Assembly: GCA_017472325.1 (NCBI GenBank)
Contig: JAFUQM010000054.1
Location: forward strand, 1 to 57,043
From: Lachnospiraceae bacterium
GTDB taxonomy: Bacteria; Bacillota; Clostridia; Lachnospirales; Lachnospiraceae
Reading direction: 5' to 3'
Length of the DNA stretch: 57,043 nt
The first letter of the stretch is position 1. Every line of letters starts with the position of its first letter. Below the pieces are notes generated by a model, which made no database searches, was not told where the DNA came from, and saw only the letters and a program-made list of their open reading frames with translations. The position numbers were made by a program, and so were the translations under genes. This document shows, piece by piece, positions 49,410 to 57,014 of this stretch.

Positions 49410-49440
49410 AACAAAGTATTTTTAAGAGAATAAATGAGAC

Positions 49441-49645
49441 GAATATCCTGTATAGGATGGAGCTTATATAGCTGCCCTTAGTAAGTGGCGATGAAGTTTG
49501 GGTCTCGCGCAATAGGAATCTACGAATCTGGTCAGGACAGGAATGTAGCAGCCATAAGAAGAACCTCCTATGTGCCGTGAGGGTGCCTGGCGGAGTTAAC
49601 TGCGAAGGTAACGTGTATAAGTTCCATCTTGTACAGGATTTTTTT
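49441..49645 (+). ncRNA. ffs: Signal recognition particle RNA
   Basis: Homologous to Bacillus scRNA over its helix 5 and S domain: GCCCTTAGTAAGTGGCGATG, GTTTGGGTCTCGCGCAATAGG, the SRP54 loop GGTCAGGACAGGAATGTAGC, then ACCTCCTATGTGCCGTGAGG and GCCTGGCGGAGTTAACTGCG. In the tip, ACA-GGAA-TGT replaces UCC-GGAA-GGA, a compensatory change that keeps the stem. The 5' end (TCCTGTATAGGATGGAGC, 49446-49463) pairs with the 3' end (49621-49638), followed by seven T. The 5' Alu domain of the 270-nt Bacillus RNA seems absent. It lies between tadA and a radical SAM gene. Confidence 0.9.
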
Positions 49646-52138: not shown

Positions 52139-53053
52139 ATGGCATTATCAGAATGTAATGTAATCATAAATCAGCAGGGCAGAGAGTTAGCAGAGCATGG
52201 AACAGCACTTTTCCCGATAGCCTGTTATCATGATAATTTGGAAAGAGAAGAAGTACATTGGCATTGGCATGACGAGCTGGAAGCTATGGTGGTAATTAAG
52301 GGCCAGACGATAGTTGCAGCCGGAACAGAAAAATACATTATCAGAGAAGGAGAAGGAATTTTTATCAACGCCGGAGTCCTGCACGGGGCATGGGATTATG
52401 AACAATCCGGATGTCAGTTCCATTCTCTGGTATTTCATCCAAGGCTAGTAGGAGGAAGTGCAGAAAGTATTTTCTGGCAGAAATATATTCAGCCAATTTT
52501 AGATAATTCCTCTTTAAAGGGTATTCACTTTCAGTGCAGTAAAGATTGGCAGAAGGAAATCATAGATAATATTGAAAAAGCCTGGCAGTTTTGTGTCCAT
52601 GAGCCATCAGGATATGAATTTCAAGTAAGGGATGCTTTATCAAAAATGATATTTCTGCTTTCTGATCATATGAATATAGCTCAAAGCAGACCTTCACCAA
52701 AGCAGTTAAGAGACGGGGAGAGAATGAAAAAAATGATTCAATATATTGAGCAGAACTGTGGTGAAGAACTTAGTACGGCTGATATCGCAGGCAGTGCTAT
52801 GATTAGTGAAAGTGAATGCCTGCGCTGTTTTCGTAAGACCATAGGGAAACCGCCCATTCAGTATGTAAAGCAGTTTCGTATTCATAAAGCAGCAGGGCTT
52901 TTAATTTCCACACAGGAGAAAATTGCAGATATTGGTACACAGTGTGGATTTCAGGATATGAGCTACTTTACAAAAACATTCCGGGAGATGAAAGGGTGTA
53001 CACCTACGGAATATCGGGAGAAGATGGGAAATAAAAGTTTTCCGACAATTTAA
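52139..53053 (+). CDS. AraC family transcriptional regulator
   Basis: 304 residues: N-terminal cupin-like sensor (HWHWHDELEAMVVIKGQT; EGEGIFINAGVLHG) and a C-terminal pair of helix-turn-helix motifs (MIQYIEQNCGEELSTADIAG; PIQYVKQFRIHKAAGLL; IADIGTQCGFQDMSYFTKTF). It probably controls the divergent MFS gene; the intergenic region is 167 bp. Preceded by AGGAGAGAGG. Confidence 0.93.
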   Translation: MALSECNVIINQQGRELAEHGTALFPIACYHDNLEREEVHWHWHDELEAMVVIKGQTIVAAGTEKYIIREGEGIFINAGVLHGAWDYEQSGCQFHSLVFHPRLVGGSAESIFWQKYIQPILDNSSLKGIHFQCSKDWQKEIIDNIEKAWQFCVHEPSGYEFQVRDALSKMIFLLSDHMNIAQSRPSPKQLRDGERMKKMIQYIEQNCGEELSTADIAGSAMISESECLRCFRKTIGKPPIQYVKQFRIHKAAGLLISTQEKIADIGTQCGFQDMSYFTKTFREMKGCTPTEYREKMGNKSFPTI

Positions 53054-53062
53054 AAAAGTGTG

Positions 53063-53091
53063 TTGACAAAAGAAATTATGTGTGCTTAACT
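53063..53091 (+). promoter_or_regulatory. Promoter of the multidrug exporter operon leader
   Basis: TTGACA (53063-53068) and TTAACT (53086-53091), 17-bp spacing, with a TGC extended -10. It sits right after the AraC gene stop and 60 bp before the leader ORF. Confidence 0.75.
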
Positions 53092-53151
53092 ATCCATAGA
53101 CAGATTATGGAAGTGATTTCATAAAATATAAAAGAAAGAGAGGTAATAAAA

Positions 53152-53226
53152 ATGACAATTATGAATAAAAATCGCAATACAAAAAATCAGAATAAGCTTT
53201 ATATTACCTCGGTTAAGTTTGTGTGA
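53152..53226 (+). CDS. Putative 24-residue leader peptide of the exporter operon
   Basis: ORF starting MTIMNKNRNTKNQ and ending LYITSVKFV before TGA at 53224. AGAGAGG lies 8 nt upstream, which is a convincing ribosome site for so short an ORF. The stop is 68 nt before the attenuator stem. Such leader ORFs precede drug exporters regulated by ribosome stalling (for example bmrCD in B. subtilis). The peptide has several Asn and Lys residues; no similarity is claimed. Confidence 0.65.
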   Translation: MTIMNKNRNTKNQNKLYITSVKFV

Positions 53227-53294
53227 GAATTCTTGTTTACATGGTTAGAAGAACGTAGACTTTATTTGGACACAGAAATATTAATTAAGTTTGT

Positions 53295-53326
53295 AAACCC
53301 ATGGTAATATTTGCCATGGGTTTTTT
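53295..53326 (+). terminator. Attenuator terminator upstream of the exporter genes
   Basis: AAACCCATGG (53295-53304) pairs with CCATGGGTTT (53314-53323), 9-nt loop, then six T (53321-53326). GTAAAC (53293-53298), overlapping the left arm, can instead pair with GTTTAC (53235-53240) just after the leader stop, a possible anti-terminator. The hairpin lies 121 nt before the first exporter gene. Confidence 0.8.
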
Positions 53327-53446
53327 GTGTTGCCATGCATCCGAAGGGAGCTGCCAGTGGCAGGTCCTGTAGGTGTAAAGAAATGAATTAGAAAGCTCAC
53401 GTTTTAATTTATTTTGTAAATAAAAAAGGAAAGAAGGGGAAGGAAA

Positions 53447-55165
53447 ATGAAGAAATTACATACCTATATAGGTAAGCATTGGTTAGGATATGTTTTTGCA
53501 ATTCTTTGTATGATTGCAGCTATTGTTTTGGATATGTTATATCCCATGATTACAGAAAGCATTATTGATGATGTCATGCTGGGTGGAAAAACGGAAATTT
53601 TATTAGGGTTATTGATAGGAATCGTGGTAGTGGGAGTAGGAAGAGCCATTACCGGTTATTTTAAGGAATTTACTTTTGATAAACTGGCATCCACCATTGG
53701 TTCTGAAATGAGAAAGGATCTGTTCAATCATATTCAGTCTTTATCTATGAATTTTTTTGCAGGAACCAATACCGGAGAATTAATGGCAAGGGTAAAGGAT
53801 GATGTGGACAGAGTATGGGACGTATTGGGTTATGTGGGAATGCTTTTAATTGAAGTCGTAATTCATGTAACTATCGTTCTCTATTGCATGTTTACCCGAA
53901 ACTGGAAACTGGCATTTCTTCCATTGATTACTATGATTGTCTGCGGTGTGGCAGCAGTGATTATGGAAAGAAAACTGGATAAGGTGTACGAGGGGATTAG
54001 TGAGGAAAATGCAGTTCTTACCACAGTTGCTGAAGAAAATCTGGCAGGAGTCCGTACTGTAAAGGCATTTGCAAGAGAAAAATTTGAGATTGAAAAATTC
54101 TTATCTCATAACAACAAATATTATGAGTTAAATATTACCCAGTCCAAAGTTATGGCAAAGTATTATCCTATTTTCCAATTTGTAGGAAAAGCACTTCCGG
54201 TTTGCACTACAGTTCTTGGTGGAATTTCCGTTATGAACGGAGAAATGTCTTTGGGTGCTTTGGTAGCTTTTGTTGAATATACCAGAAACTGTACCTGGCC
54301 TATGGAAATGATGGGATGGCTTACTAATGGTTTATCTTCAGGAATCGCATCTTACAAAAAGATTAAGAAAATTTACGGAGAAAAACCGGAAATCTGTAAT
54401 AAAGAAGATGCAGTCATTTTAGAAAACGTGACTGGCGATGTGGCATTTGAAAATGTAAGTTTCTCTATAGAAGGAAAAAATATTTTAGAAGACATCAGTT
54501 TCTATCTGCCTTCTGGAAAGACTTTGGGAATTATGGGAGCTACCGGTTCCGGAAAATCTTCCATCATTAATTTATTGCAGAGATTTTTTGACGTCAGTGA
54601 TGGGACGATCAAAGTAGACGGTGTGGATATCCGTGATTTGACTTTAAAGCAGCTTAGAAGCAGTATTGCCGTAGTATTGCAGGACGTATTTCTTTTTTCA
54701 GATACTATTGAAGAAAATATCAAAATGGGACAAAGAAAACTTCTTTCAGAAGAAGAAATTAAATACGCTGCCAATCGTGCCAGAGCCAGTGAATTTATCG
54801 AAAAGTTAGATGAGCAGTATGAAACCGTTATCGGAGAACGAGGTGTTGGTCTGTCCGGCGGGCAAAAGCAGCGTATCAGTATTGCAAGAGCTTTTTCCAA
54901 GAAGAGCCCTATTCTGGTATTGGATGATTCTACGTCTGCTTTGGATATGGAAACGGAAGTGGAAATCCAGAAAAACCTGAACAATCTGAAAGGAATTACG
55001 AAAATCATTATTGCACACCGAATTTCTGCGGTCCGTCATGCGGACGAAATCATTTATCTGGAAGATGGAAAGATTGCAGAAAGAGGAACTCATGAAGAAT
55101 TGCTTCAGAAGAAAGGGCTGTATTATCAGACTTATAAGGCACAATATGGAACTATTCAGAGCTAA
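53447..55165 (+). CDS. ABC exporter half-transporter, degenerate-site subunit (BmrC-like)
   Basis: 572 residues: six-helix type 1 ABC membrane domain (1-310) and a nucleotide-binding domain. Walker A MGATGSGKSS, Q-loop VLQDVFLF, signature [10 protein letters not shown] and Walker B VLVLDDSTSALD, in which the catalytic Glu is replaced by Asp. This is the pattern of the degenerate-site subunit in heterodimeric exporters such as BmrC. Its signature sequence is normal, completing the active site of the partner. GAAGGGGAAGG precedes the ATG. Regulated by the leader/attenuator. Confidence 0.92.
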   Translation: MKKLHTYIGKHWLGYVFAILCMIAAIVLDMLYPMITESIIDDVMLGGKTEILLGLLIGIVVVGVGRAITGYFKEFTFDKLASTIGSEMRKDLFNHIQSLSMNFFAGTNTGELMARVKDDVDRVWDVLGYVGMLLIEVVIHVTIVLYCMFTRNWKLAFLPLITMIVCGVAAVIMERKLDKVYEGISEENAVLTTVAEENLAGVRTVKAFAREKFEIEKFLSHNNKYYELNITQSKVMAKYYPIFQFVGKALPVCTTVLGGISVMNGEMSLGALVAFVEYTRNCTWPMEMMGWLTNGLSSGIASYKKIKKIYGEKPEICNKEDAVILENVTGDVAFENVSFSIEGKNILEDISFYLPSGKTLGIMGATGSGKSSIINLLQRFFDVSDGTIKVDGVDIRDLTLKQLRSSIAVVLQDVFLFSDTIEENIKMGQRKLLSEEEIKYAANRARASEFIEKLDEQYETVIGERGVGLSGGQKQRISIARAFSKKSPILVLDDSTSALDMETEVEIQKNLNNLKGITKIIIAHRISAVRHADEIIYLEDGKIAERGTHEELLQKKGLYYQTYKAQYGTIQS

Positions 55166-55226: not shown

Positions 55227-57014
55227 ATGGCAGTAAATTCATATCGTGAAGACGAGTTTATGGAAAACACTGATAAAAAGAAAATCTTAAAACGGCTGCT
55301 TTCCTACTTGTTTGAATATAAAGTCACCATTGTGCTTGTGCTTCTTTGTATGGGTGTTACGGTGGGAATTTCTTTGATAAATCCATTGATTATTGAAGAA
55401 GCATTGGATAATTATGTGGCAAACAAAAATATGTCAGGTCTATTAAAATTAGGAATTTTTGCACTAATGTTAAATATCATTTTCGTTGTAATGGTAAAAA
55501 TCAGGATGTTGGTCATGGCAAAGATCACAAATGAGATTCTATTAAAAATCAGACAGGATTTGTATGAACATATCCAGACATTATCCTTTGCATTTTTTGA
55601 CAGCAGGCCAACGGGAAAAATTCTGGCAAGAATTATTGGGGATGTAAATTCTCTGAAAGATGTGTTAAACAATTTTGTCACAACTTTAATCCCTGAGTTT
55701 GTTACGGTGATTGGTGTTGTAGTGATTATGTTGATAAAAGATGTATGGCTGACGTTAGCATCTTTAAGTACACTTCCATTGATGATGCTTGGAATTTTTG
55801 TAATACAGAGAGCAGCTCATAAACGTTGGCAGATTTTCAGAAAGAAATCTTCTAACTTAAATGCCTATGTGCACGAAGATATTGCAGGAATGAGTGTAGT
55901 ACAAAGTTTTGGAGCAGAAGAGGAAACAAGAGAAATTTTTGCAGATTTGGCGCATGAACATCGAAATTCATTCTGGGATGCCTGCCGCTATGCAGATATG
56001 TTTGGTCCGGTCATTGATTTCTGCTGGGGTATCGGAGCTATGATGCTTTATCTGGTGGGAATCAAGGTTCTTGGAATCGAGAATATTTCCGTAGGTTTGT
56101 TGGTAGCTTTCGGAACTTATATTAATATGTTCTGGAGACCTATCATGAATCTTAGTAATTTTTATAATAGTTTAGTAACAAACTTAACGGCAGCGGAGCG
56201 TATCTTTGACATTCTGGATACCGAACCGGATATTTTTGATAGAGAAGGCGTGGAAGAATTACCTGAGATTCGAGGCGCAGTAGAATTTTCCCATGTAAGC
56301 TTTACTTATGATAAAGGAACTGCAGCAGAAACCAGGGTTTTGGAAGATGTAAGTTTCAAAGTTAGTCCGGGAGAAACTATTGCCTTAGTGGGTCCTACGG
56401 GAGCAGGGAAAACTACCATTGTAAATCTTATCAGCCGCTTTTATGACATTGAAGAAGGAAATATTTTAATTGATGGATACGATTTGACTAAGATTTCCAT
56501 TGAAAGTCTGAGAAAACAGATGGGAGTTATGACCCAGGATAATTTCATTTTCCATGGAACAGTGCGGGACAATATTCTTTATGGAAAATTAGATGCCACG
56601 GAAGAGGAAGTGATTCAGGCTGCGAAAGCAGTCAATGCTCACGACTTTATTATGAAAATGGAAAAGGGTTATGATACGGAATTGAAAGAACAGGGCGCAG
56701 GACTTTCTATCGGACAGAGACAGTTAATTGCTTTTGCCAGAACTATGATTTCCATGCCAAAGATCTTAATTTTGGATGAAGCCACTTCCAGCATTGATAC
56801 TCATACGGAAATTCTGGTACAAAAAGGTATTGAAGCATTGCTTGCGGGAAGAACCAGTTTTGTTATTGCCCACAGATTATCCACTATTCAGAATGCAGAC
56901 AGAATTTTTGTCATTAATGATGGTGGAATTGTGGAACAGGGAAGTCCCAAGGAACTGATGGAGAAGAAAGGCGCGTATTATAACCTGTATATGGCACAGT
57001 TTGCGGATGTGTAG
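55227..57014 (+). CDS. ABC exporter half-transporter, catalytic-site subunit (BmrD-like)
   Basis: 595 residues: six-helix membrane domain and a nucleotide-binding domain with Walker A GPTGAGKTT, Q-loop VMTQDNFIF, signature LSIGQRQLIA and Walker B ILILDEATSSID with the catalytic Glu. The signature departs from LSGGQ, as expected of the subunit that contributes to the degenerate site. With the upstream gene it forms a heterodimeric drug exporter. GAGAAAGAAGGG precedes the ATG. The last 29 bases of the window show nothing recognisable. Confidence 0.92.
   Translation: MAVNSYREDEFMENTDKKKILKRLLSYLFEYKVTIVLVLLCMGVTVGISLINPLIIEEALDNYVANKNMSGLLKLGIFALMLNIIFVVMVKIRMLVMAKITNEILLKIRQDLYEHIQTLSFAFFDSRPTGKILARIIGDVNSLKDVLNNFVTTLIPEFVTVIGVVVIMLIKDVWLTLASLSTLPLMMLGIFVIQRAAHKRWQIFRKKSSNLNAYVHEDIAGMSVVQSFGAEEETREIFADLAHEHRNSFWDACRYADMFGPVIDFCWGIGAMMLYLVGIKVLGIENISVGLLVAFGTYINMFWRPIMNLSNFYNSLVTNLTAAERIFDILDTEPDIFDREGVEELPEIRGAVEFSHVSFTYDKGTAAETRVLEDVSFKVSPGETIALVGPTGAGKTTIVNLISRFYDIEEGNILIDGYDLTKISIESLRKQMGVMTQDNFIFHGTVRDNILYGKLDATEEEVIQAAKAVNAHDFIMKMEKGYDTELKEQGAGLSIGQRQLIAFARTMISMPKILILDEATSSIDTHTEILVQKGIEALLAGRTSFVIAHRLSTIQNADRIFVINDGGIVEQGSPKELMEKKGAYYNLYMAQFADV

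Follow-up and report, generated by a model that had tools for sequence, protein, structure and literature searches.

A probable ribosome-mediated transcription attenuator, with the leader Shine-Dalgarno sequence as a pairing arm, upstream of a BmrCD-type exporter in Lachnospiraceae

The leader of a heterodimeric ABC exporter in a Lachnospiraceae bacterium carries three short boxes, the second of which is complementary to both of the others, and we consider it probable that this leader is a ribosome-mediated transcription attenuator in which a ribosome held at the start of a leader ORF is the signal and the sequence of the encoded peptide is irrelevant. The stretch of DNA analysed, referred to here as the window, is 57,043 nucleotides long. 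The leader (53063–53329, forward strand) lies between a gene for an AraC-type regulator and two genes for ABC half-transporters, and its features are listed in Table 1. The regulator gene (52139–53053) is directly 5′ of the leader on the same strand, and a bacterial large SRP RNA (RF01854) is present elsewhere in the window at 49425–49645, also on the forward strand.

Table 1. Features of the leader and the exporter genes in the window
Feature	Coordinates	Strand	Sequence or length	Remarks
Putative promoter	53063–53091	+	TTGACA, 17-nt spacer, TTAACT	Predicted from sequence; -35 at 53063–53068, -10 at 53086–53091, extended -10 TGC
Box 1	53138–53147	+	GAGAGGTAAT	Leader ORF's Shine-Dalgarno; anti-antiterminator arm; core GAGGTAAT at 53140–53147
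Leader ORF	53152–53226	+	24 codons (MTIMNKNRNTKNQNKLYITSVKFV)	Stop TGA at 53224–53226
Box 2	53201–53212	+	ATATTACCTCGG	Inside leader ORF; complementary to box 1 and box 3
Intrinsic terminator	53295–53329	+		Hairpin 53295–53323, then U tract; compensatory changes among homologs
Box 3	53299–53310	+	CCATGGTAATAT	Terminator 5′ arm and loop; alternative partner of box 2; core GGTAATAT at 53303–53310
ABC exporter subunit 1	53447–55165	+	572 aa	BmrC/YheI-like; D replaces catalytic E after Walker B (LVLDDSTSALD)
ABC exporter subunit 2	55227–57014	+	595 aa	Walker B canonical (LILDEATSSID)

Parts of this layout had been described in a first-pass annotation, and the 24-codon ORF with its ribosome site, the terminator and the two genes of a heterodimeric exporter are all borne out. 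The exporter is of the BmrCD type, with a degenerate catalytic site (DD) in subunit 1 and a canonical one (DE) in subunit 2, and the sequence matches of subunit 1 include YheI (BmrC) as well as TM0288-type and multidrug half-transporter chains. The same annotation called the promoter consensus. Its -35 hexamer is indeed perfect, and a similar arrangement (TTGACA-N17/18-TATACT/TTTACT/TTAACT or similar) lies upstream in 25 of 45 homologous leaders, but the -10 is weak and the promoter is absent from the listing of a consensus promoter scan. From its position, transcription would start at approximately 53098. For the terminator, one was found in the window compared with 0.5 expected in shuffled sequences.

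A search for complementary repeats in the leader shows that GAGGTAATAAAAA, in the Shine-Dalgarno sequence of the ORF, is complementary to TTTATATTACCTC within the ORF, and that ATATTACC, part of the same intra-ORF segment, complements GGTAATAT in the terminator arm and loop. Box 2 can therefore pair with either box 1 or box 3, and the two pairings are mutually exclusive. The leader has two features of attenuators: an intrinsic terminator between promoter and gene, and an exclusive antiterminator that overlaps the 5′ arm of the terminator. Box 2 of the window covers only the inner part of this arm and the loop, so that it can pair only in the moment before the 3′ arm appears.

The reading of the leader as ribosome-mediated attenuation had already been proposed, and it stands in so far as there are a probably translated leader ORF, a terminator and a BmrCD-type exporter; the segment suggested to capture the terminator arm was, however, the wrong one. 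This was GTTTAC (53235–53240), to be paired with GTAAAC (53293–53298). The pairing has a probability of no more than 0.04 in every folded state, a 6-nt complement of this kind arises in 14% of shuffled spacers, and the site lies in a spacer that shows no conservation in the alignment. It is box 2, within the ORF, that forms the conserved antiterminator.

We propose that the switch would work as follows. With no ribosome on the leader, box 1 would pair with box 2, the terminator (3:4) would fold, and transcription would end near 53326. If translation proceeds freely the ribosome would reach the stop codon, which is usually 13–32 nt past box 2, and would sit on or near box 2, again leaving the terminator free to form. 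If a ribosome is instead held at the ORF start, it would cover box 1, and the freed box 2 could then pair with box 3 as it emerges, giving read-through into the exporter genes. Such holding might result from slow ribosomes or from drug-induced arrest at initiation or the first steps of elongation.

Leaders were compared across loci that encode relatives of subunit 1, and the same three boxes were found between promoter and exporter in many relatives from Roseburia, Agathobacter, Eubacterium and Butyrivibrio. Aligning 33 leaders shows 96% of cells to be paired in helices 1:2 and 3:4 and yields 60 both-side changes, a result that none of 500 shuffles reach. The invariance of helix 1:2 is partly built in, since the aligned leaders were mostly chosen by their box 1 and box 2 pattern. 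Box 3 was outside this pattern, as were the columns of the joint change described below. The helix 2:3 covariation score in these 33 leaders is 0.163 compared with 0.094 when shuffled (0 of 500), and one position (alignment columns 16/118/313) changes jointly in boxes 1, 2 and 3, appearing as T-A-T, A-T-A or C-G-C. Box 3 itself differs between groups, being CCGTGGTAAT in the Roseburia type and CC(T/A/G)GGTAAA or similar in the Butyrivibrio type, and each version fits its own box 2. Duplexes between box 2 and the terminator 5′ arm average -9.8 kcal/mol, whereas shuffled arms give -4.8, and none of 200 shuffle sets does as well. In most leaders helix 2:3 retains a mismatch at a position that is paired in the terminator, making the antiterminator weaker than the terminator.

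Folding of the nascent window RNA with its 3′ end at 53312 gives a probability of 1 for pairing between boxes 1 and 2 when no ribosome is present. Masking 53137–53167, as an initiating ribosome would, raises the 2:3 pairing from 0 to 0.86 in the same transcript. Across 89 leaders the mask at the start site raises the expected number of 2:3 base pairs from 3.7 to 8.9, compared with 4.0 for a mask of the same size placed in the spacer and 2.6 for shuffled arms. In this simple folding model box 1 stays free when the mask is placed deeper in the ORF; a ribosome lodged in the 1:2 loop would probably also hinder 1:2 pairing. In full-length RNA the terminator is favoured by approximately 12 kcal/mol on average, and by 14 in the window, even with the Shine-Dalgarno sequence masked. 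Because the terminator wins at equilibrium, the antiterminator would have to act kinetically, prevailing before the 3′ arm is made.

All 88 leaders compared have a leader ORF that is open in its own frame from its start to box 2; the two alternative frames give 2 and 11. A stop follows within 35 nt of box 2 in 84 of the 88, against 42 and 46 for those frames. Part of this set had been pre-filtered for an open ORF; at the loci found by the covariance model described below, which were unfiltered, 62 of 65 are open. The openness and the constrained stop position are what is seen when an ORF is under selection for translation, and the ORF is presumably translated in vivo. An alternative is that the ORF is incidental and that the SD-like hairpin answers a protein or a small molecule, as in a riboswitch or protein-binding leader. 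We regard this as very improbable; the boxes are strongly conserved at the RNA level, as it would predict, but the frame openness and stop position indicate translation, the unpaired regions have no conserved aptamer-like core, and no Rfam 15 family matches the leader at gathering score, with only weak sub-threshold matches being seen.

The amino acid sequence of the peptide is a different matter. Peptides of the exporter leaders evolve without amino-acid constraint (pN/pS 0.96), and box 2 is read in all three frames, two of which give ITS and LPR. An open ORF with a fixed stop, combined with an unconserved peptide and a varying frame, indicates that translation and the position of the ribosome are selected and the identity of the peptide is not. 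That the peptide showed no recognisable sequence, as remarked in the first-pass annotation, is explained by this lack of conservation among relatives. These data also bear on a classical drug-specific arrest peptide, in which the nascent chain, in response to a macrolide-type or other drug, brings the ribosome to a halt at one defined codon, as in ermC, tlrB and hflXr. Leaders of a second class, which precede RsgA-family GTPase genes (see below), lend this some support in that they show mild peptide constraint (pN/pS 0.76) and a weak peptide pattern, with Y four codons before the TS codons and a C/Y-A-F end, in which changes are synonymous and TAT and TAC are both used. The exporter-class peptides, with their pN/pS of nearly one and three frames through box 2, share no motif, and neither +X+ nor RLR is common to the peptides listed, and we consider arrest by a specific peptide quite unlikely.

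A third possibility is that the leader senses the supply of ribosomes, such that simple loading of 30S subunits at the leader Shine-Dalgarno opens the terminator with no arrest involved and output tracks the pool of free initiation-competent ribosomes. Box 2 is freed whenever box 1 is occupied, and a 30S-linked GTPase is among the targets, so that the RsgA loci too would make sense. A fast ribosome, however, should leave box 1 and cross box 2 before the terminator is made, and the stop codon conserved shortly after box 2 speaks for completed translation as the off signal. We think supply sensing unlikely, and favour the held ribosome as the signal.

Leaders of vmlR, cplR, bmrB and hflXr have been shown to work by this route (PMC9226507, PMC10201436, PMC4191407, PMC6310831), and for vmlR and cplR inhibitors of initiation or of the first elongation steps have been shown to induce (PMC9226507, PMC10201436). 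By analogy with their behaviour, the switch described here is predicted to respond to the same kinds of inhibitor. A close parallel is vmlR of Bacillus subtilis, where a translated uORF in a 5′ hairpin forms the anti-antiterminator and arrest at initiation frees the antiterminator (PMC9226507); uORF variants from other species also work there (PMC9226507). The vmlR uORF has only three codons, its Shine-Dalgarno is in a single-stranded stretch, and its target is an ABC-F protein (PMC9226507), whereas here the Shine-Dalgarno itself is the anti-antiterminator arm and the ORF, of approximately 20–40 codons, runs over the antiterminator segment. The cplR leader of Clostridioides difficile likewise has a short uORF, a 5′ hairpin, a terminator and an antiterminator and is induced by start-arresting drugs, but its uORF encodes the tripeptide MRI, its terminator also hides the Shine-Dalgarno of the main gene, and the target is again ABC-F (PMC10201436).

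The bmrBCD operon of B. subtilis shares with this locus a leader ORF and terminator in front of a heterodimeric BmrCD-type exporter, and a terminator, antiterminator and anti-antiterminator are predicted there, with the antiterminator energetically less favourable than the terminator (PMC4191407). It differs in that the 53-aa bmrB ORF holds the terminator in its coding region, with the three structures in its nucleotides 60–162, in that its anti-antiterminator has no proven role, and in its control by AbrB (PMC4191407). The window leader does not have a terminator and antiterminator inside an ORF of about 53 codons, the hairpin being approximately 69 nt past the stop of a 24-codon ORF. We believe that the use of an ORF's own Shine-Dalgarno as the anti-antiterminator arm, with the antiterminator inside the ORF, is new, judged from the open-access literature, so that an earlier description is possible; within the same scope, a long leader ORF without peptide conservation and its reuse before two kinds of target are also new. 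The arrangement suggests a way for a leader to sense arrested ribosomes without a conserved peptide.

Since searching with a bare DNA pattern produced many chance matches inside genes, the distribution of the element was determined with a covariance model. It is present in 49 of 397 genomes sampled from the family and in further genomes of the order Lachnospirales, other families included, whereas in a sample of 391 genomes from the class no genome outside the order gave a match at E ≤ 1e-4. Among 100 ABC loci, most encoding relatives of subunit 1, about two thirds have the element upstream; this frequency, together with its absence from the sampled genomes outside the order, places the architecture far beyond chance. 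The element is undetectable in about a third of the ABC homologs, among them the closest one (L032, 91% identity), which tells against the attenuator reading. At that locus (L032:1-2100) there is no attenuator, and immediately before the ABC gene lies an unrelated coding region, phosphatase-like by eye. The combination of a Shine-Dalgarno sequence, an anti-SD inside the ORF and a matching terminator arm is a searchable signature, and it flags drug-export genes that are probably inducible in major gut bacteria (Roseburia, Agathobacter, Butyrivibrio and relatives).

Of 54 loci hit by the model, approximately 30 lead to an exporter and approximately 19 to an RsgA-family GTPase (for example L146, L149, L159, L164, L169, L177, L178, L180 and L182). 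Several of the GTPases carry an N-terminal GNAT domain (GNAT-RsgA fusions). In all six genomes checked (G042, G047, G206, G356, G115 and G475) the controlled RsgA is an additional copy, with a housekeeping one also present, and G206 has one element for each target class. No attenuation of rsgA was found in the open-access literature. We count the recurrence of the element before a second ribosome-linked gene class in favour of the attenuator reading, and the element is best read as a new multi-target attenuator family, analogous to vmlR, cplR and bmrBCD and tuned to early-stage translation arrest. Similar small-ORF attenuators precede a ribosome factor in hflXr/rli80 of Listeria (PMC6310831), whose target is a second hflX copy and so parallels the accessory RsgA, and in the uORFC-6-1 motif upstream of hflX (PMC8632094), although these differ in an RLR arrest peptide, in the RNA and in the GTPase. 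The extra copy of this 30S-assembly GTPase as a target suggests a role in ribosome protection. Tentatively, and with somewhat less than even confidence, we suggest that the Lachnospirales have a dedicated translation-stress response: a single modular ribosome sensor, independent of peptide sequence, would stand before both exporter and accessory RsgA, the latter being an unrecognised ribosome-protection or antibiotic-resistance factor like the second HflX of Listeria.

A few hits lead to other genes. RqcH was considered as a target at one locus (L147:1501-2260) and set aside as weak, since a 54-aa ORF intervenes and the NFACT/RqcH gene starts approximately 554 nt beyond the terminator. A strong-scoring element (L145:1501-2007) precedes a 94-aa ORF that matches nothing in Pfam or NCBIfam; the genome concerned carries an exporter element as well. 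At L181:1501-2151 the element lies before a gene for a RimI-like GNAT acetyltransferase.
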